Assembly (NCBI GenBank): GCA_002355455.1
Contig: AP017375.1
Span: forward strand, 3,534,001-3,598,000
Reading direction: 5' to 3'
Length of the DNA stretch: 64,000 bases
Origin: Stanieria sp. NIES-3757
GTDB lineage: Bacteria > Cyanobacteriota > Cyanobacteriia > Cyanobacteriales > Xenococcaceae
Shown: piece after piece, positions 24,910 through 37,247 of the stretch
How positions within the stretch are numbered: the stretch's first letter is position 1
How the letters are laid out: every line of letters begins with the position of its first letter
Notes under the pieces: generated by a model
What the model was told of the DNA's origin: nothing
Databases searched by the model: none
The model's input: the letters and a program-made list of their open reading frames with translations, nothing else
Position numbers and translations under genes: made by a program

Positions 24910-24994
24910 GGGTCGATGCCCGAGTGGTTAATGGGGGCGGACTGTAAATCCGCTGGCTATGCCTACGCTGGTTCAAATCCAGCTCGGCCCACCA
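24910..24994 (+). tRNA. trnY: tRNA-Tyr (GTA)
   Basis: Class II tRNA with a long variable arm. The acceptor stem GGGTCGA pairs with TCGGCCC, the anticodon loop is ctGTAaa with GTA at 24944-24946, and the T arm reads GGTTCAAATCC. The discriminator A at 24991 is followed by an encoded CCA (24992-24994). Confidence 0.95.
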
Positions 24995-25022: not shown

Positions 25023-25094
25023 GCCCTTGTAGCTCAGTGGTAGAGCACACCCTTGGTAAGGGTGAGGTCACGAGTTCAATCCTCGTCAAGGGCT
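25023..25094 (+). tRNA. trnT: tRNA-Thr (GGT)
   Basis: A 72-nt tRNA. The acceptor GCCCTTG pairs with CAAGGGC, the D arm is AGCTCAGTGGTAGAGC, the anticodon GGT is at 25055-25057 and the T arm is GAGTTCAATCCTC. CCA is not encoded. Bases 25043-25057 with the preceding GTA (25040-25042) form the apparent target and PAM of the adjacent CRISPR-associated transposon. Confidence 0.96.
25040..25059 (+). other. Homing protospacer and PAM inside tRNA-Thr
   Basis: GTA at 25040-25042 fits the GTN PAM of type V-K systems. The next 15 bases, GAGCACACCCTTGGT, match the terminal guide encoded at 25255-25274 on the minus strand with one mismatch; 15 of the first 17 bases agree. The transposon end starts at 25103, which is 60 bp beyond the PAM and within the 60-66 bp insertion window known for V-K elements. 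Confidence 0.85.
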
Positions 25095-25102
25095 TTTTTA
25101 TT

Positions 25103-25215
25103 TGTACAGTGACACTTTATTTGTCATCGGGGACACATTACTGTCATTGAGTCAAATTATTTGTCGTCGGGACTAATTGTTGTCTTTAAAATAGTAGTGA
25201 CAAATTAATGTCATT
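25103..25215 (+). repeat. Left end of the CRISPR-associated transposon
   Basis: Begins with TGTACAGTGACA and contains repeated transposase-binding-type motifs: TTTGTCATCGGGGACA, TTTGTCGTCGGGAC and GTGACAAATTAATGTCA. The motif set and order closely resemble the left end of the Scytonema hofmannii V-K element (from memory of that sequence). It lies on the tRNA-proximal side, consistent with the left end facing the PAM. Confidence 0.85.
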
Positions 25216-25254
25216 TTTAGACGATAGATATTATTTATCATTCCTATACAATTA

Positions 25255-25467
25255 CAATGACCAAGAGTGTGCTCCTTTCAATCCATCTTAACACTCAAAA
25301 AATTGACTATTCTCTAATAAGAATGATCATTAACATTGAAATAATTTAGAGAAGCTTTTTTCCTGCATTGCAGTTCTGTTTCAACCCATCCCTAGCTGGA
25401 ATGATCGTTAAAACAGAAGTAATCAACCCACATTTAACGGGCGCATCCGTCTTTCAACCCATACCTA
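25255..25467 (-). CRISPR. Degenerate type V-K array with terminal homing guide
   Basis: Transcribed on the minus strand. The one well-kept 37-bp repeat lies at 25378-25414 (GTTTCAACCCATCCCTAGCT on the plus strand, then GGAATGATCGTTAAAAC). A decayed repeat starts at 25451 (CTTTCAACCCATACCTA), with a 36-bp spacer between them at 25415-25450. A half repeat remains at 25320-25336. The last, truncated repeat at 25275-25291 (CTTTCAATCCATCTTAA) is followed by the guide GAGCACACTCTTGGTCATTG (25274-25255), which targets the neighbouring tRNA-Thr. The layout is that of a delocalised homing crRNA. Confidence 0.82.
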
Positions 25468-25479
25468 TAAAGAAAAAAT

Positions 25480-25710
25480 GAAGATGGATTCCTCCTTGCT
25501 CGGAGGTGAAGGGGTAGCCACCACTGTAATACATTTACACCACATATTGCTGGGGGCGCACCTTGTTTCTCATCAATTGACGACAGCATCAGGGCGGGTA
25601 GCTACCAGGGTCAGAAAGCACAACTGTCTACCGACAGTCAAACTAACCCAGATTTAACACAAATCAGAGGTTTGAAACAAACATGACTTGCGGCGCTGTT
25701 AATAATGCTA
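25480..25710 (-). ncRNA. tracrRNA of the type V-K system
   Basis: The minus strand between cas12k and the array carries the characteristic V-K tracrRNA blocks in order: AGCGCCGCAAG, GGGTTAGTTTGACTGTC with its hairpin, CTTTCTGACCCTGGTAGCT, CCCTGATGCTG, GGTGCGCCCCCAGCAATA, GTGGTGGCTACC and a hairpin with CTCCGAGCAAGGAGG. An anti-repeat AATCCATC follows at 25500-25493. Unlike cas12k, the RNA looks intact. Ends are approximate. Confidence 0.83.
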
Positions 25711-25741
25711 TTCAATTTTCCAGGTTCGTAATTGATTTACT

Positions 25742-27535
25742 TTAATAATTTAAACGATTAGTATAAGCAGAAATTGCTATTTCCTTTGCTTGATCTTGAG
25801 GACTACCTCTAATTGACTGTTTGCTTTCCTCGATCACAATTCCTGCTTTGGCAGCCTGAGCCTTGATATTTTCCATTAATCTGCCGTAACTCCATTGATG
25901 AACATTAACTCTATACTGCTTGGCGTATTTTTTTTGTCCTTCTTTGTTGCCAGGAATTTTTTGTTCTGCTAAAGCTTGAATTTCGCTTTGAACTATTTCC
26001 CGCATATTCCCTAGTTTTGGTAATACTATGCTTCCTACTTGGTAAGTTTTAGCTAGATTAACGATCGCATTGGCTAACAAACGGTCTAAATGTTGACCTA
26101 ATTTTGATTCTCCCAATTGATTGTTGGCATGATGTTTTTGATTGAGATGACGTTGGTGAGATAAAAAGCTTTTTTGTCGTCTCTGGCGATTGAGAAGTTG
26201 ATAATTATCTCCCAGTAATTGTTTAGTGCTGCGATAAGTAATTACCTTTCCTGAGATGGCATCAATCACTGCTGCTGTAGCTGGTTTTTCTAGTCCCATA
26301 TAAATACCTAATAAAATATGAGCTTGACCTTGATAAAGAGGTCGATCGGGACGAGGAAAAGGGTTGTTAATTCGAGAAAGACAAGTTTGTTTGCGTTTGA
26401 CAAAAGCTTGTTGTTTGGCATTTAAATCGCCTTTTTCTTTCATGCGAGTGAGAGTTGTAGCAATTTCAGCAGCTTTTTCTTGTCTTACCTGTTCTGTTCC
26501 TTCAGCAGTTAATAAACGAGTACCTAGTGTACAGTAAAGAGTGAGATGATTGACATTCCAAGGTTCGCCTTTCCCTTCGCCCTCTTGCCAAGCAATTCTT
26601 GACGAGCGCAACAAAAATAATGCACTCGAATGAAGATTTTTACTAGCTTTTTTGACTTCTTGGTCTTGGTAAAAACGTTGAAATAAAGGTAGTTGGCGTT
26701 GGTCGCAATAAATTTCAAAAATATGTTCGCCCAAGCCACTAAAACGAACGCACAAGCGACTTTTTTCGTTTTTAGACCAAGTCATGTCTTCGTTGGTTTC
26801 GTAGGTAATAGGAAAAGGAACAGATTTGGGTTTAGTTAAGAGTATGTCTTGCCACAATTTAGCTTGTACTTCATCCTGGGGTACGTGAGTTGCGACAGTA
26901 ATCAGAGTATCTAACCATTGTTGCCCAGTTAAATCTCTTCCTTTGGGGGTTTGGCTATTAAGCTTTTTGAGCAGTCGCTCGACCTTGATTTCAGTTTTAC
27001 GGCGACGTTTGGCAAATTTTTTGGGGTCTTCTGGTTTTTGCCTCAATCTACAGCCATTTTTGATTAAGTAAATAATGGCACTGCGACGGAGAAGATTTTT
27101 GGTCTGCTCAAATTTCTCAAACAGAGTGTTGGATAAGGTGCTATCTTCACTAACTTTGAGCGATTCGAGAATTTCTTTAGCTGTGGCGCGAATTGTCTCT
27201 AAACTAGCCTGAGTTTCCTCTACTAATTCTTCATCGCTTTTTAGAATGGCTAGCCAGCGTTGTTGTCCTTGAAGTCGGTACTTTAATTGTTTCTGAAGCT
27301 TTAACCAAGACTTATAAATGTATGTGACAAGCGCGATCGCACTTGTATAAAACCTTGCGGGTTGACCGATGTAGCGAGGGTCGGTTTTAAGAGGTTCGCA
27401 AAGATTTTTAATTGTACCAATAGGAATTTTCCCTTTAGTTTTCCAGGTTTCAAAGTCAAGATAATTTGCAAAATTTTTACCGCAAAAAATAGCTTGGAAA
27501 ATAATTTCAACAACAGACTAATAAGTTTACTTGGA
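25742..27535 (-). pseudogene. cas12k: cas12k, N-terminally truncated and frameshifted
   Basis: About 590 codons of Cas12k, the RNA-guided DNA-binding effector of V-K transposons (normally near 640 residues). The long open part, from about 27480 to 25742, includes FETWKTKGKIP, EPLKTDPRYIGQPARFYTSA, FAKRRRKTEIKVERLL, TNEDMTWSKNEK, GEGKGEPWNVNHLTLYC and KKYAKQYRVNVHQWSYGRL. It has no ATG, GTG or TTG before a TTG at 27046. Near 27480-27520 the frame shifts; LISLLLKLF, matching family residues about 30-40, is read in another frame. The first 28 or so residues are missing, and the sequence runs into the helicase 3' end at 27547. A 434-residue product from 27046 would lack the N-terminal lobe. Confidence 0.88.
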
Positions 27536-27546
27536 TAATTTTTTGT

Positions 27547-28368
27547 TCAAATTAAAGAGTGTAGATATTCCAACTGAGATAATAAATCTTCCTGATAATT
27601 GATCGAAACAGCCATATATCCAGTAACCGACTCTAAGTTTTCTCTTTGAACGCGATCGCGTTGTTGTTGTTCTGGTGAATCGTGAACCGAACCGTCACAG
27701 AAAATAGCTATTTTGGCTTTTTTATAAATAAAATCGGGCTTGCAGTTGGCTTCTGGGATTAATTCTTGAGCAGAATCAGGTAGTTTAATCCCCTGTTCAT
27801 ATATGGCTTTTAAAACAACTCGCTCGAATTGTGAATTAGGATCGGTTTGTTCGAGTAATGTTTGGTAATGTTCTAAACGAGATCGCGTATCTTGTTCTAA
27901 AGCTACTTGACTATGCTCTAATTGTTTTAAAAATTCGCTAATTAAATAACGATTGAGATGAGGATGGTCAAATTGATTGCGGTAAGACAATAAGCATTGA
28001 TAACAGGCTTGAGCGCAACTATCTTTTGGTTCTAGGAAATGACAGATATCTAAAGCTTCCTGGGCGATTTTTTGAAATGAAGTAAAATCTTCCAAAATTT
28101 GAGACAATACACCTGCACCGCCTTCGGCTGCTTCCCAGAATAAAAGATATTTACCTTTTCCAACTCTTTCGGAAGCCAGTTCGTCATTTTCCAGTTTGTA
28201 TAATGCTTGAATAGCTCTTTCTAGGGTGTATTGCAAGGTAATAATAAAAGCATCCGTATTTGTTTCTGGAAGACTCAGGGGTTCAATAACTAAAATGTTT
28301 GAGGTATCTTTAACCATCAGTTGAACATTAGTATCTACCGCCTCGGTAAGCTGCTCTTGTTCTTTACT
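27547..28368 (-). pseudogene. DUF1998 helicase, C-terminal segment
   Basis: The last 273 codons of the helicase cut by the insertion at 28374-29470. Read through the target site, the frame is continuous: SGEWVSKEQEQL then VDTNVQLMVKDTSN. It contains the DUF1998 zinc-type cysteines (CHFLEPKDSCAQACYQCLLS, then YRNQFDHPHLNR) near residue 150. A C-terminal part with FIYKKAKIAIFCDGSVHD resembles a PD-(D/E)XK or DUF559-type fold. A shorter frame could start at ATG 28317 but would encode no ATPase. Confidence 0.85.
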
Positions 28369-28373
28369 TACCC

Positions 28374-29470
28374 ACTGATGTTACGCAAAAGCTATAATAC
28401 TCGAATGGACAAAAAGCTTTTGGAACTATACAGCGATTATATTATCAGCTCGTTTGGACAGATAACAGCGACAGGATTATCAAGAGTATTAGAAGGAAGT
28501 ATCAGTCACGATAAAATAACTCGTTTCCTGTCGGCTAAAGACTTAGAGTCACGAGAGCTGTGGAAGTTAGTGAAACCAGTGGTCAGGGAGTATGAACAAG
28601 AAGATGGTGTGTTGATTGTGGATGACACCATAGAGAAAAAACCTCATACCCAAGAGAATGAGTTAGTGTGCTGGCATCATGACCATCAAGAAAACCGTTC
28701 TGTCAAGGGAATTAACATCATCAACTATGTTTATAGTGTCGAAGACATAAGCCTACCAATTGGGTTTGATGTCGTCAAAAAGTCCATAAAATTTTGTGAG
28801 GTAAAAACAAAGAAGGAAAAACGAAAAGCAACAGCAACAAAAAATGAATTAACACGAAATCAATTAAAAATTTGCTCCCAGAATCAACTCAAATACAGGT
28901 ATGTGCTAGCTGATAGTTGGTTTTCCTCGAAGGAAAATATGGCTTTTATCTGTCAGGATTTAGATAAGCACTTGATCATGGCTCTCAAAAGCAATCGTAC
29001 CGTAGCCTTGAGTGAAGAAAACAAAAAACAGGGTTGTTTTACCAGAATTGATGAACTCAACTGGTCAGAACAGATCTCAGTCAGAGGATGGCTTAAAGGA
29101 CTGGACTTTCCTGTTCTCATCTATCGTCAAGTCTTTAAAAACCAAGATGGCAGTACTGGTATTTTGTATTTGGCTTGTAGTGATTTAAACTGTAATGTCC
29201 CTCAAATAGAAGCAATCTACCAAAAACGGTGGAACGTGGAAGTCTTTCATAAAACGCTCAAGTCTAATACTGGTTTAGCTAAGTCCCCAACTAAATGTCT
29301 TCGTACTCAAGGAAACCATATCTTTATGTCTATCTATGCTGCATTTCAATTAGAGTGTCTGAAATTGAAACACAAGATGAACCATTTTGCTTTGCGCAGT
29401 ACTATTTATGTCAAAGCTTTGCAACAAGCTATGTGTGAATTACATTTACTCAAGAGTGCGTAACATCAGT
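28374..29470 (+). mobile_element. IS4/IS701-type insertion sequence
   Basis: A 1097-bp element bounded by inverted ACTGATGTTACGCA repeats (28374-28387 and 29457-29470) and flanked by TACCC direct repeats (28369-28373 and 29471-29475), a 5-bp target duplication. It carries one transposase gene. Removing the element and one TACCC copy restores the helicase frame exactly, so this was a simple insertion, probably recent. Confidence 0.9.
28405..29463 (+). CDS. IS4/IS701-family DDE transposase
   Basis: A 352-residue transposase starting at MDKKLLELYSDY. The catalytic triad is seen as D in VLIVDDTIE, D in VLADSWFS and E in the Y-R-E-K signature YQKRWNVEVFHKTLKS. The frame is intact and fills the insertion sequence, so it may be active. 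An in-frame ATG at 28378 inside the inverted repeat is the alternative start. Confidence 0.9.
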   Translation: MDKKLLELYSDYIISSFGQITATGLSRVLEGSISHDKITRFLSAKDLESRELWKLVKPVVREYEQEDGVLIVDDTIEKKPHTQENELVCWHHDHQENRSVKGINIINYVYSVEDISLPIGFDVVKKSIKFCEVKTKKEKRKATATKNELTRNQLKICSQNQLKYRYVLADSWFSSKENMAFICQDLDKHLIMALKSNRTVALSEENKKQGCFTRIDELNWSEQISVRGWLKGLDFPVLIYRQVFKNQDGSTGILYLACSDLNCNVPQIEAIYQKRWNVEVFHKTLKSNTGLAKSPTKCLRTQGNHIFMSIYAAFQLECLKLKHKMNHFALRSTIYVKALQQAMCELHLLKSA

Positions 29471-29475
29471 TACCC

Positions 29476-31308
29476 ATTCTCCAGAAGTAGTGTCGAGTTT
29501 AAACCCCTTTTCTTGCGATCGCGTTAATCCCTGATTGATTCTCCAGATATCGGCAGTTTCTCCATAAGTAAGGCGGAGTAATTTTGTCTCGTCATTTGCT
29601 GTAATAGTAGCTACTTGTTGTTTGTCTTTGGCATAACGGAAATGAGTAATTAATTTATAACCGTATTTGAGCCTTTCTTCTTCATCACAGGTAATACGAT
29701 TGGTTCTACGGGCGATCGCGTTATCCATTTCTAAAACTTTGGGTAGTTTAGCAAGATTACCTTTATCGTTTTGAGATAGTCTTTGTCCGCAGTTGGCACA
29801 AGTATTACGAATAAAATCTTCGCCATCGTGAAAATATCCACAATGATGGCAAATAGCAACTCGGTTGTAAGTAACTCTTTTGACGGAAATACGAGTTTTA
29901 CTAACTTTATATTTATTACCTTCGTAGTACAGAACATTAGTTGGGGCAAGTTCGCGGATGGCAATGATTCGGGGACGAGCGATAAATTCACCTTTATCTC
30001 CTGCACGAATATATGCTCTAACTGGAAGACGGGGAAAGTTAAACCCTGGTAAGAATCCTTCGGAAGCAAAGTAACGATAGGGATAAAAATCGAACTGACT
30101 GTTATTGTTATTTTGGGATTGACCGACTAATAAATCTTTTTGGCGTTGAGCTTCTCTAGCCATAGATTCAGCTTCTTGGCGTTCTTTTTCGGTTACATTT
30201 CCTCGGCTATGACGGTCGATAACTTCTCTAGCTTTAATTAGTTGATGTTCGGCATCTTTGTAAAAATCGCGCCAACGCTGACAAGCTATGTCAAATTCAT
30301 GGAAAGCATTGTTTAGAGTATTCTTAAGCCACTCGGAACTATACCAATTGACGCGCTGTAAGTCATTCTGGCAAAAGCGATCGCTCAATACCCGATCTAA
30401 ATCTTCAAAACACTGTTGCAAGCTATTTGGGTTCAGATTAAGTTGAGCTTTGATATCTTCTTTTAACGGATAACCATCTTTTTCTAAGTCCAAAATCTCA
30501 TTCATGGAGTTTCTAAAATTTGCTCCTGTATAAGACAGCCAGAGAGAATAAACATGAGATTTAATTAAATCTTGATTGGCTAATTCTAGTTTTGGGGGAA
30601 CTACTACCCCTGCTACCATCTGCTGTTGACGCTGATAAAAATATTGGTCGTGGGGACTACCCGCAGCAGCATAGGTTACAACTAAGGCATTTTGACCGCC
30701 ACGACCCGCCCGTCCGCTACGTTGGGCATAATTAGCTGGAGAAGGGGGAACATTACGTAAATGAACGACACTGAGGTTAGAAATATCAATTCCTAATTCC
30801 ATTGTGGGAGAACAAAACAGAGTAGATAGTTTTCCGTTACGGAATTTATCCTCTCTGTCTTTACGATTGTCGTAATTTACCTGACCTGTATGTTCCCGCC
30901 CCTCCATTATTTTTATAGTTTGGGCGTTACTACTATAAAAGGTTTGGAAAAACTGATTAATTTTGCGTCCCTGTTCTTCCTTTCCTTGGAGACGCTTGCT
31001 AGTGAGAATATCTACAGCAAGGCGATCGCTTTTACTTGACTTCCAGACTATCGAATCAATGCGTAATTGAATTTCAGTTTTACTATTTTGTTTGAGATAA
31101 CCGTAATCTCTTAGGGTATTAATAAGTGACGTAATTAGCTGTTGATATTCAGATTCAGATAGAGAAATAGTTAACCACGACCAAGCGCGATCGCTTTTTA
31201 GGAAACGTCCGATCTTACTTTGCCCTGAAAGTTTGACTTTGCTTTTATCTTTGGAATCTCCCTTAGTAGTAGTCGCCCATCTTGCTTCATGAAGTCTTTC
31301 TTCAGGCT
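29476..31308 (-). pseudogene. DUF1998 helicase, middle segment
   Basis: The second RecA-like domain and following region of the same helicase. The frame is open from the frameshift near 31308 to the insertion at 29475. It includes the helicase motifs CSPTMELGIDISNL and QRSGRAGRGG (motifs V and VI), then PRPRIIAIRELAPTN-like beta-rich sequence and two CxxC pairs (CHHCGYFHDGEDF, CANCG) near 29790-29850. The 15 codons after the break (KQPEERLHEARWATT) continue the N-terminal segment in another frame. Alone it lacks Walker A and cannot be a functional helicase. Confidence 0.82.
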
Positions 31309-33815
31309 GCTTCTAATTCTTCGTATTCAATTTCTAGTAAGCCACACTGTTCTAAGTTTGGCTGAACGATCCGCCATCCTCTACGTAAGTCTTCATAGAG
31401 ACGATATTCAATTAATTGCTCAAAAATCCTTTGATTGCGCCTTTTGCCCGCACCATGTTCTGCTGGTTGTTCGGCATATTCGCTTTGGGATAGTTCCATT
31501 TGCTGCACGACGATTGATGCTAAGTTTGCATGGGTAAGCCTTTGTTTCGCTTGTAATGCACCGTTAAGACTGGCTCTTAAAAAGCTAGTTTGCACAAAAT
31601 CATTAAAATGTCCTGCTTGAAGCGATGCGTCTTGACGGTTATCGGTAAAGCTGAGAATTTTTGCCGAGTCTGGGGAAATAGCCTGAGTTTCTTTGAGTCG
31701 GGTGACTGAAGATAGGCACAGTAAGGTAGTAGAGGTGCTGCGTCCTTCGCTACTCAGACGGGCTAATTTAGTGTATTCGCTAGTTTTGCGATCGTAAAGA
31801 ATACCACAGTTTAAACAGGTTAGAAAGGGTTTGAGAATAAACCAGAAAGGAATCGGTTGGTTAGCTTGGCTATCGGCAATTGCTCTTTTTTCAATTGTGC
31901 CATTGGGATAAATATATAGTTTTTGAGGAATGAATTTTTGATATTCCTTTTTAACGGTTCTTCCGTAGCGTTTAGTTTCTCTAAACCAATTATCAGGGAG
32001 TGAATCTAGATCGTCATCGCTCCAAAGATCGGGTTCATCTAATGTTAAATAACCTTCCTCTATATCTTCATCGCCGTCATTATCGATCGCAATAGGTAAC
32101 AAAGGAGTTATTTCGTCTTTATCAGTGTTGTAGCGTACTGCATAATAATCTTGACCGCATTCGCGACAGAATACTAAAGGAAATAATAAGCGATCGCCTG
32201 TTGTTTTATACTGTCCTTCTAAAGTTAAATATCTTTTGTCTTTTGATTCCAAAGTGGCATAAACACTACCACCCTGAGAAATAAACTGATGTAGTCGAAA
32301 AGGTAAACCTTTATCTATTCGACTACTCCAAAAGAACATTTGTTTGAGAATGTCAGAACAACTTTCTTTTTTAATTCCAGTGATTTTTGATAATTCTTCA
32401 CTTCCATTAGAGAGAGCAATAGGTTTTCGACGAATTAAATGACCATCACTTTCTTCTAAACCAAAATTCATCTCGATCCATTTACTGAGAGGATGCTGTA
32501 AAAATGCTTCTGAGGTTTGGTTTTCTAGGTCAGGTAGTCCATTCAAACATTCGATCAGTTCTTCTACAGTTGGTTGAGGTCTAGTAATAGCTGGTTCTAA
32601 AGTCTCATCAATAATATTGGTGGGTTTGACTTCTACTCCAAATAATTTACTGGCTACATCAGCTACAGTAGTTTGGCGGTTCGTGCGATCGCCTTCTGTA
32701 GACATGGTGGCGGAAGTACCGATACATAGAATGGGGATATTCTGACCTTGTTTAGCTTTGTAGGAAATTTGCCGTAGTTTTCTAATAACCAATGCTACAT
32801 CTGCACCCTGGCGACCTCTATAGGTATGTAATTCGTCTAGTACGAGATATTTAAGAATCGGTGATTTAACAAACTTCTCTTCGTGGACGCGAGAAAGCAT
32901 CAACTCCAGCATCACGTAGTTGGTTAGGAGAATTTGAGGCGGATTGTTTTGAATGTCAGATTTCTGGGATAGGCTTTCTTGTCCTGTATATCGGGCGAGT
33001 CGAATATGAGAATCTCTGCCAGATTTTTCTTTGTACTTAGTCAAAAATTTATTAATTTCTTCTTCTTGAGAATTAATGAGAGCATTCATCGGATAAACCA
33101 ATATTGCTCTAATTCCCTTTAGCTGAGGATTTTGCAGTAAGTCGTTAATTATCGGTACGACATAAGAAAGGCTTTTTCCCGAACCCGTACCAGTGGTAAC
33201 GACATAGGGTTCATTTCTTTTGGCGCAACGAAAGGCTTGTTCTTGGTGATAATAGAAGCGAAAGCCAGGAAAATATTTTTTACAATCCGAATGCAGAATA
33301 CCTTCATCAATCAAGGCATTAATTGCAGCACCTTGTTTGTAAGCGGGATTAATTTGAACTAAAGGATCGCTCCAAAGATAACCCTTGTCTAGTTCTTGTT
33401 TAACGAAATCTGCTATATGGCGATCGCGTATTTCTAAAAAACTTTCAAGATAATTGCGGTAGTCACCAATGACTTCATCTCTAAGCTTGAAAATGTCTAA
33501 AGCCTTTTTCTCTTCAGCTTTATCCTTGAGAATGAGTTTTGGTTGAGGCTGTTTTTCTTGTCGAAGATTGCACCATTCTGCAAGTTGTCGTTCTAAATTA
33601 TCGCTAATAGTATCGGCATTGTAGATAGTTTTTAATCGATTAAAGTCCCAAGTTTTAGGAAGATTGCCCAATATTTGCTCTAACTGTTCGGGAGTTAAGC
33701 TATCTATGCCAGTAGCATCCAAAATTACCATTTCTTGAGCAATTAATGTGCTAGTAGCTGCGATCGCGCTTTGGTTTTGGGCTAATAATTCCTGAAGTTT
33801 AACTGGTAGCTTCAT
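31302..33815 (-). pseudogene. DUF1998 superfamily 2 helicase, N-terminal segment
   Basis: The first 837 codons of a helicase of about 1700 residues. Walker A is TTGTGSGKS, motif Ia lies in ILVYPMNALINSQ, the DExH box is VLDELHTYRGRQGADV and motif III is IGTSATMS. Zinc-type cysteine pairs (FCRECGQDYYAV, CLNCGILYDRK) interrupt the second half. It ends at a stop caused by a 1-nt frameshift, since the next frame continues the family at once. DruE of Druantia, DrmA/DrmB of DISARM and MrfA share this helicase-plus-DUF1998 plan; which one is closest cannot be settled by eye. It lies downstream of a toxin-antitoxin pair, in the cargo of the transposon. Confidence 0.85.
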
Positions 33816-33943: not shown

Positions 33944-34288
33944 TTAAATTTGAAATGTTGTTGTTAAAACTCGATCTAATTGCTGAATTTGATTGATTCC
34001 TAATTTACCAATACGTCTAGTAATTAAACGGCGTTCGAGAGTAACTATTCTTGCTACTCTAACTTTAGAGGCAACTTTTAAGCCCGTTCCTGGAAATTCT
34101 GCATCGGCAGGATCGAGGCTAAATTCTTCTGGACTTAAACGAGTAACATTTTGTGATGAAATAAAACAGAGAGTAACATCATCACCTTTGCTATCTACCC
34201 ACAACACTACAGCAGGGCGTAACTTAGTTGTACTCAAGTCTGTAAATGGAAAGGGAACGAGAACGATATCGCCTTTAGCTAATGGCAC
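33944..34288 (-). CDS. MazF/PemK-type endoribonuclease toxin
   Basis: A 114-residue toxin of the MazF fold: GDIVLVPFPFTDLSTTKLRPAVVL is the family's N-terminal signature (core PFPFTDLSTTKLRPAVVL), followed by the SKVRVARIVTLERR strand region. These toxins cut mRNA. It starts at a GTG that overlaps the antitoxin stop by one base (TAGTG), so translation is coupled. It is one of few intact genes in the transposon cargo, as expected of an addiction module. Confidence 0.9.
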   Translation of the reverse strand: MPLAKGDIVLVPFPFTDLSTTKLRPAVVLWVDSKGDDVTLCFISSQNVTRLSPEEFSLDPADAEFPGTGLKVASKVRVARIVTLERRLITRRIGKLGINQIQQLDRVLTTTFQI

Positions 34289-35705: not shown

Positions 35706-35871
35706 TGTAGCGACCCGAAATAAAAATCACACCGACCCGAAATAACGGCATTTTTCGACCCAGATTAAATGACAATATAAAGAGGTCAAACCCACTCTTT
35801 ATGACAATAGACCCAGATTATTCTGACACTGACCCACAATCATAATCAAGGGCCCACAATAACTGACAATA
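35706..35871 (+). repeat. Left long terminal inverted repeat of the 1.05-kb element
   Basis: Starts TGTAGCGACCCGAAATAA and carries five GACCC-type motifs. It is about 85% like the reverse complement of 36592-36755 by eye. Confidence 0.8.
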
Positions 35872-35877
35872 AACATT

Positions 35878-36561
35878 TCACAATGGAATACCAATTTTGA
35901 GAATCAGGTCTCTGAGATCTTGAGTTTTTTCTGGAGGAAGTTGACCGTGAAGAAATGAACGCACCTCAGCAGGTCTAACATTTAACAACCTAGCAATAGA
36001 TTGGGTGTTGTAACCATGCCGAATTAAATTAGGTTCGAGGTCATCAAAGCCAATAGCCAAGACTGTTTCCATAAATTCAGTAGTAATTGGTTTCTGCCCT
36101 ACTTGATAAGCCTCATTCATAGCTAAAGTGAGATATTGCTCGATTTGCAGTGGTGTAGATAATCGCTTTCCTAAGAAAGAAATAGTGGATGATTCCAAAA
36201 TATCTGTAGGCTGAACTTTATCAGACGCAGCCATTCTCAAAATCCATTGAATATATTCTTCCTGATGACCTCGAATACCTTCTAAGGCAAAAATATGAGT
36301 GCGACCGCCAATTTCCTCCAAGGTCGGTCTTTTCAAATCATTTTTAAGTTTGGGATGTCCTGCCAAGATAACACTTAATTTGTCCCCATTATTGCGTACC
36401 AACTCAACTAACCGTTTCAAACTCACCAGAGTTTGATTGTGGAGTCCGTGAGCATCATCTACAAATAAAGCTACGGGAGAACGACATTTCTTCATTAATT
36501 CCAGCAAATGTCGTTCCTTTTTTCTAGACAGTTTGAGAAGGGTCTTATTGAGAAACAGTTA
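35878..36561 (-). pseudogene. Truncated TnsC/ExeA-type AAA+ transposition ATPase
   Basis: The open frame from 36507 encodes 209 residues with Walker B VALFVDDAHGLH, then LSVILAGHPKLKNDL (sensor I region) and a C-terminal helical domain with a helix-turn-helix (NTQSIARLLNVRPAEVRSFL). Upstream codons in frame (NKTLLKLSRKKERHLLEL) reach back only to a TAA near 36562, so the P-loop glycines and the preceding 80 or so residues are gone. The product cannot bind ATP normally. It resembles ATPases of Mu/Tn7-like elements but is not the TnsC of V-K systems. Confidence 0.75.
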
Positions 36562-36591
36562 AAGCCAATAATAGGTAAAGCTTCTAGGCTA

Positions 36592-36755
36592 TTGTCAATT
36601 ATTGTGGGTCGATTGTGATTATTTCGGGTCAGTGTCAAAATAATCTGGGTCGATTGTCATAAAGAGTGGGTCTGACTTCTCTATATTGTCATTTAATCTG
36701 GGTCGAAAAACTTCATTATTGCGGGCCGGAGTGATTCTTATTTCGGGTCGCTACA
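36592..36755 (-). repeat. Right long terminal inverted repeat of the 1.05-kb element
   Basis: Read on the minus strand it starts TGTAGCGACCCGAAATAA and parallels the left repeat for about 165 bp, including GACCCAGATTAAATGACAAT and GACCCACTCTTTATGACAAT. Confidence 0.8.
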
Positions 36756-37033
36756 CCTAAACGAAATTTTTTTTATTTCACCAGGCACAATCAGTCTCTT
36801 AAAGATTGAAAAGCAACAAAGGCAGAAAAGAGAACTATTGGATAAAGTTTTCTCCTAGTTTTACATTTCCTACCTTTGTAACCCGATCTAAATTAAAGAA
36901 GAATTTTTTGCCGTAAGCCTCCCTCTAAGGATAGCTATTCTACTTCTCAAGTCTTCTCTTTAGGCTGACTAGTAGCAAAGGTACGTGTCACCTCTAAAGA
37001 GAAAATTAGTATTGATGATGAGGAATTTATTAA
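36756..37033. other. Non-coding remnant between the 1.05-kb element and the transposon right end
   Basis: About 278 bp without a recognisable gene. A plus-strand frame open from the element border to TAG at 36858 encodes 33 residues (with KIEKQQRQKRELLDKVFS at its end); it could be the tail of a lost gene or chance. No trace of the missing methylase part or of tnsB is seen. Confidence 0.5.
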
Positions 37034-37092
37034 AACGACACTAATTTTGTTATCGATGACAAATAATTTGGCAATCGACAACTTAGTGTACG
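37034..37092 (-). repeat. Degenerate right end of the CRISPR-associated transposon
   Basis: Contains ACGACACTAATTTTGTTATC, GATGACAAATAATTTGGCAA and CGACAACTTAGTGTACG. These match the TGACAATAATTTGTCA and CGACATATAATTAGTCACTG blocks of V-K right ends, but the terminal TGTACA has decayed to TGTACG. It lies 30 bp from tRNA-Ser. Confidence 0.65.
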
Positions 37093-37122
37093 CAACAAAC
37101 GAAAAAGCAACTTGAAAAAATA

Positions 37123-37207
37123 CGGAGAGGGTGGGATTTGAACCCACGGAACCTTTCGGTTCACTCGATTTCAAGTCGAGCGCGATCGACCACTCTGCCA
37201 CCTCTCC
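37123..37207 (-). tRNA. trnS: tRNA-Ser (TGA)
   Basis: Class II tRNA of 85 nt on the minus strand. The acceptor GGAGAGG pairs with CCTCTCC, the anticodon loop is CTTGAAA with TGA, the variable arm is GAACCGAAAGGTTC and the discriminator is G. CCA is not encoded. Confidence 0.94.
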
Positions 37208-37247
37208 AGGTACAGCTTTAATATAATAGCAAAAATGAATCCACAGT

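Follow-up and report, generated by a model that had tools for sequence, protein, structure and literature searches.

In Stanieria sp. NIES-3757, the crRNA unit downstream of the tRNA-Thr(GGT) gene is, with a probability that we put at about 0.87, the anchor unit of a type V-K CAST that was once inserted at this site, subsequently decayed and had its left part duplicated to a tRNA-Gly locus. Judged from the sequence, crRNA-guided homing to tRNA-Thr is well supported as a historical event, not as a present activity. The stretch of DNA analysed (hereafter the window) comprises 64,000 nucleotides and corresponds to G000:C1:3534001–3598000, and the features of the attachment site, in window positions, are the following.

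24910–24994, tRNA-Tyr, which precedes tRNA-Thr(GGT)
25023–25094, plus strand, tRNA-Thr(GGT), the attachment gene (ARAGORN and Rfam), with the protospacer at 25043–25059
25040–25042, plus strand, GTA, a candidate PAM of the GTN type, followed directly by GAGCACACCCTTGGTAAGGG from 25043
25103–25220, plus strand, V-K CAST left end, TGTACAGTGACA together with the TnsB-type repeats ATTTGTCATCGG, ATTTGTCGTCGG and TTAATGTCA
25255–25274, minus strand, predicted anchor (homing) spacer GAGCACACTCTTGGTCATTG, of which ~17 nt are used
25275–25291, minus strand, truncated repeat R* TTAAGATGGATTGAAAG, directly 5' of the guide on that strand

A preliminary description of this DNA had proposed a truncated repeat on the minus strand followed by a guide, and the position of the repeat proved correct to the base; its form, ending in GGATTGAAAG, also precedes the guides of other V-K elements. 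The claim that the first 15 bases of the guide match tRNA-Thr 25043–25057 with a single mismatch was borne out (14/15 identical, the mismatch being at position 9, where the guide has T and tRNA-Thr(GGT) has C); over 17 nt the identity is 15/17, with mismatches at positions 9 and 16. The GTA preceding the match does fit a GTN PAM, as had been suggested, and TGTACAGTGACA indeed starts at 25103, 60 bp past it. This TGTACA-type end with TnsB-binding repeats (TGTACAGTGACACTTTATTTGTCATCGGGGAC at 25103, after tRNA-Tyr and tRNA-Thr(GGT)) lies 8 bp past tRNA-Thr, which is directed into the element, and its boundary is set by a second copy of the left end that is identical from 25100. A search of the whole genome with the pattern GTN+GAGCACACTCTTGGT(A/C)A, allowing ≤2 mismatches, retrieved only this tRNA-Thr and two copies of the guide. 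No better target was found for the guide, and none of the tRNAs in 60 relatives matched it exactly.

Delocalised crRNAs of V-K elements at tRNA genes were reportedly described by Saito et al. in 2021 and by Hsieh and Peters in 2021. ShCAST and AnCAST are the V-K prototypes, with a target spacing of ~60 bp. The window element resembles them in its Cas12k family, end motifs and target spacing of ~60 bp but, unlike these complete elements, is incomplete and would not be expected to be active. In the anchor-spacer scheme of Ziemann et al. (2023), a truncated repeat and a ~17-nt spacer lie inside the left end, a GTN PAM is found 46–82 nt from the left end, the tRNA points into the element and the genes are ordered cas12k-tracr-array (PMC9938897). 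The window shares with this scheme R*, a ~17-nt spacer for the adjacent, inward-facing tRNA (15/17), the GTN PAM (GTA, at 60 bp) and the gene order; it differs in that the element is decayed, lacking tnsB, tnsC, tniQ and the right end, in that its guide has two mismatches to the target, and in that a second copy of its left end adjoins a tRNA that the guide does not match. To judge by its anatomy, the guide unit is an ordinary member of the known V-K anchor-spacer class.

For comparison, 80 loci from public genomes, collected with a Cas12k profile, and four left ends of the present genome were surveyed, and the 59 loci with an inward tRNA within 5 kb were retained. The best R*-anchored 17-mer of each was compared with the adjacent tRNA behind GTN, ≤3 mismatches out of 17 counting as a match, so that GTN in all guide-matched loci was imposed by the search. 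A guide to the adjacent tRNA was found in 55 of the 59 left ends: 36 without mismatches, 16 with one, two with two (the window being one of these) and one with three. The remaining four had 9–10 mismatches, that is, no match. When the same guides were set against tRNAs of other isotypes, none of 595 mispaired trials gave ≤3 mismatches, the minimum being 4. Just one matched survey guide exceeds the 2/17 mismatches of the window guide. The commonest PAM was GTA (29/55 guide-matched loci), and the distance from PAM to TGTAC[AG], readable at 36 loci, was 42–66 bp, compared with 60 bp in the window. The crRNA-guided homing to tRNA-Thr that the preliminary description had deduced is thus supported as history, both by the survey and by agreement with all structural rules of V-K homing guides.

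Comparison with guides of other strains, which had been suggested as a check, was likewise favourable: the same or nearly the same guide adjoins the same tRNA-Thr gene in other genomes. The guide pattern search covered 390 genomes of the class together with G049, which came from an order-level search. A guide with T at position 9 was found beside tRNA-Thr(GGT) in G049, G173 and G433 (the last differing by one further base), and a version with C at this position in G307 and G342; position 9 of tRNA-Thr is C in each of these genomes, and T at that position was absent from the tRNAs of 60 relatives. Since the guide has T in several genomes and the tRNA has C in each, the mismatch persists or recurs, and the C-to-T change is seen in four cyanobacterial lineages. 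The window element shares with the V-K elements of G049, G173 and G433 the guide GA[GA]CACACTCTTGGTAA, in which position 9 is T where tRNA-Thr has C, as well as the GTA PAM, offsets of 55–66 and the tandem tRNA-Tyr-tRNA-Thr. The window guide alone continues with CATTG, whereas the other three continue with AA, and most of the left end of G049, the sole one compared, is too diverged for alignment with that of the window. In the crRNA-DNA hybrid the mismatch would place rU opposite dG, a wobble that may account for its tolerance; enrichment of wobbles among the guide mismatches, counted by eye at ~9/24, was not convincing. The recurrent C-to-T at position 9, possibly an rU:dG wobble, offers a testable detail on the mismatch tolerance of natural Cas12k guides. 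The T-versus-C difference was observed at loci L157 and L158 (G049:C260 and C295), L163 and L167, and the left end at L158 adjoins just the 3' half of a tRNA-Thr.

With its machinery broken, the V-K element of the window is, as far as its genes can be read, dead. The following components are left.

25376–25480, minus strand, CRISPR array remnant consisting of one 36-nt spacer and two copies of the repeat with the ending ATGGGTTGAAA[CG]; direct repeat family D1/D2
25487–25700 (limits approximate), minus strand, putative tracrRNA region between cas12k and the array
25742–27470, minus strand, cas12k without start codon and ~40 N-terminal residues (PADLOC Cas12k, E 5e-217)

The truncated Cas12k matches model positions 40–149 and 174–639 only. 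Searches (tblastn) with intact Cas12k N-termini stopped at residue 37–39, and the first 36–38 residues of intact homologues have no upstream counterpart in any frame; therefore, the start of the gene has been lost. The gap at 149–174 was also considered as a deletion and rejected, being common to intact relatives. Downstream of cas12k, the array repeat copies end at 25376 and about 25452, and the tracrRNA is recognised by similarity, its DNA being 73% identical to the corresponding part of a further V-K remnant of this genome; Rfam gave nothing at the gathering threshold for this region. Neither the array spacer nor the left end matched plasmids. Queries (tblastn) with V-K TnsB, TnsC and TniQ found none of these proteins in the window, and a V-K TnsC fragment and TniQ were located only at the tRNA-Gly locus. 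The genome-wide search for Mu-transpos_C yielded two matches, a TnsA-TnsB fusion that belongs to a different Tn7-like element and an open frame of 153 aa, and neither this search nor tblastn found an intact V-K TnsB in the genome. No right end and no 5-bp target-site duplication (specifically, no duplication of TTATT) was found at the window element. Because tnsB, tnsC and tniQ are missing, the element is a remnant and not a complete CAST, and because the interval holds no right end, duplication or tns genes, a simple insertion is unprovable at both ends.

The cargo contains a defence gene broken by an insertion sequence.

27547–33815, minus strand, broken Druantia/helicase-type defence gene (DEAD, Helicase_C, MZB and REase)
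28321–29463, DDE insertion sequence splitting the Druantia-like helicase gene

A PemK/MazF-type toxin gene is also present in the cargo (33944–34288). Further on, 35706–36755 is occupied by what looks like a small non-autonomous transposon, in which inverted repeats of 169 bp, 86% alike, flank a truncated AAA (TniB/TnsC-like) gene.

At its far side the interval is closed by another V-K terminus.

37030–37093, minus strand, left-end remnant of a second V-K CAST, from a different clade, ATTTGTCATCGATAACAAAATTAGTGTCG

This remnant adjoins an inward-facing tRNA-Ser(TGA) (37122–37208). Its repeats, read inward from the tRNA, are ATTTGTCATCG and then TTAGTGTCG, which is the order of V-K left ends; the motif order equals that of the left ends in G037 and G036, unlike that of the right end in G037, which was recovered by comparison of the two V-K copies of that genome. 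A near-identical 25-mer of the terminus (2–3 mismatches) adjoins cas12k in G004 and G007. The 25-mer also occurs exactly at G000:C1:4899846 in the present genome, beside genes that follow tRNA-Ala in a genome of the same genus. A single element running from tRNA-Thr to tRNA-Ser, with its right end at 37093, was considered and rejected, as the motifs there are those of a left end and no matching duplication was seen. On either side, therefore, the interval is bounded by a V-K left end next to an inward-facing tRNA, and it is without a transposase gene.

An empty site, anticipated in the preliminary description, was obtained in part. In a genome of the same genus (G001), which lacks cas12k, native sequence follows tRNA-Thr, tRNA-Gly, tRNA-Ala and tRNA-Ser, four genes that lie far apart, and its synteny with the window runs through tRNA-Thr and ends at ~25098. 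Since its tRNA-Thr is divergent and its gene order different, G001 provides a distant empty site rather than one in a close relative. The syntenic tRNA-Thr(GGT) (L034:4919–4990, against window 25023–25094) is strongly different in the D- and anticodon-stem, and the guide would therefore match it poorly. The genes that follow these tRNAs in G001 sit elsewhere in the present genome, with no V-K right end beside those following tRNA-Thr and tRNA-Gly, and gene order is too rearranged for the original right flank to be reconstructed.

The second copy of the left end, revealed by blastn and base-by-base alignment, corresponds to segment 25103–27731 and is located beside tRNA-Gly(TCC) at G000:C1:4969648–4972276 (L007:14649–17276), 1.41 Mb from the window. 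The preliminary description had missed this copy, along with the truncation of Cas12k, the absence of transposase genes and the left end at tRNA-Ser. The copied 2.63 kb, guide included, are essentially identical, with zero differences over 25100–27717; positions 27718 and 27729 each show a single indel in a homopolymer, after which the copies diverge. At tRNA-Gly the guide mismatches the equivalent site at 11/15 positions, the sole guide-site conflict met in the survey; because a left end with a tRNA-Thr guide adjoins tRNA-Gly, guide and site can uncouple. The distance to the tRNA-Gly left end is 60 bp from a GTA in the D-arm of the tRNA and 63 bp from a GTG, and in Leptolyngbya, elements whose guides do match tRNA-Gly(TCC) use the same site with that GTG as the PAM, at an offset of 62 in one of them. 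The own guide of a V-K element at tRNA-Gly would be GTAAAACCTTAGCCTTC or similar; a genome search for such a leftover guide gave nothing above the background of a reversed-pattern control. The right part of the locus carries restriction-modification genes, a TniQ gene and a V-K-type TnsC fragment. The break at 27731 falls inside the nuclease domain (residues 164–239) of the 27547–28317 ORF, a domain that is complete in the window but truncated in the copy, indicating that the window was the donor. Both copies carry the same Cas12k defect; thus Cas12k was truncated before copying, which makes guided transposition unlikely for the tRNA-Gly copy. A single replicative inversion that exchanged flanks and produced both loci was also considered, but found no support, given that the genes after tRNA-Thr and tRNA-Gly in G001 have other positions here and show no V-K right end.

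We tentatively propose that the V-K left-end module, together with its homing guide, was copied by recombination onto another V-K element at tRNA-Gly, so uncoupling the guide from its site. The right junction of the copy is without extended homology and would therefore have to be illegitimate. Off-target transposition by the tRNA-Thr guide, followed by loss of the right part, seems to us unlikely: V-K elements do transpose replicatively (PMC11406308) and the tRNA-Gly left end is precise, with the geometry of the window (60 bp after GTA), but the site is mismatched at 11 of 15 positions, Cas12k was already truncated and no intact V-K TnsB was found in the genome. Moreover, an older tRNA-Gly element would explain the geometry, since natural tRNA-Gly(TCC) guides occur at that site, with GTG, in Leptolyngbya. 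More doubtful still is an error of assembly, by which one repeat consensus would have been used at both of two similar V-K left ends. Near-perfect identity over 2.6 kb, with differences just in homopolymers near the break, would fit such an error; the flanks, however, differ exactly at the left-end boundary, the sequence at the right break is unrelated and contains a truncated gene, and the assembly consists of only two contigs.

The left end might also have reached tRNA-Thr itself by recombination between V-K elements, its guide-site match being inherited or coincidental. The locus has evidently been rearranged, as the interval is bounded by left ends of two V-K clades, and essentially identical sequence is found at two tRNA loci; yet the guide fits tRNA-Thr, where PAM and spacing are also right, but does not fit tRNA-Gly, and the cargo crosses the break only in the window copy, the donor, which renders this route very improbable. 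That guide and tRNA match by chance deserves practically no credence, short and imperfect as the match is: the survey refutes it, with 0/595 controls at ≤3 mismatches, and the guide is correctly placed and oriented behind R*. According to the preferred reading of insertion, decay and duplication, Cas12k with this crRNA would have bound the tRNA-Thr gene, with recruitment of TniQ, TnsC and TnsB, and the left end would have been attached at a point 60 bp from the PAM and immediately after the 3' end of the tRNA, which would have stayed whole. The element would then have lost the cas12k 5' end, tnsB-tnsC-tniQ and the right end, and later the left 2.63 kb with the guide would have been duplicated to tRNA-Gly, most likely through recombination with an older V-K element there.

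One more cyanobacterium is thereby added to those in which V-K CASTs keep a record of their own target beside the left end, so that even a dead element can reveal its past homing. The use of attachment sites by V-K elements is dynamic, for unknown reasons, according to a review (PMC11406308), and left-end exchange suggests a concrete route for attachment-site switching. If this is true, elements could swap homing guides and an active recipient could come to home to another tRNA. Two points are worth the attention of specialists, namely the separation of guide from site at the tRNA-Gly copy and the recurring mismatch at position 9; the element is otherwise of a known kind.

Other elements in the genome also adjoin tRNA genes. 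Between tRNA-Phe and tRNA-Val (L009:6489–12623; G000:C1:731488–737622) lie two further V-K remnants in facing orientation, and the one on the tRNA-Phe side retains a perfect 17-nt guide to tRNA-Phe. A Tn7-like element situated beside tRNA-Ala(GGC) (L073:6137–11422; G000:C1:3114136–3119421) has a TnsA-TnsB fusion, TnsC and a TniQ of 455 aa; it is possibly related to elements that use a protein to target tRNA.
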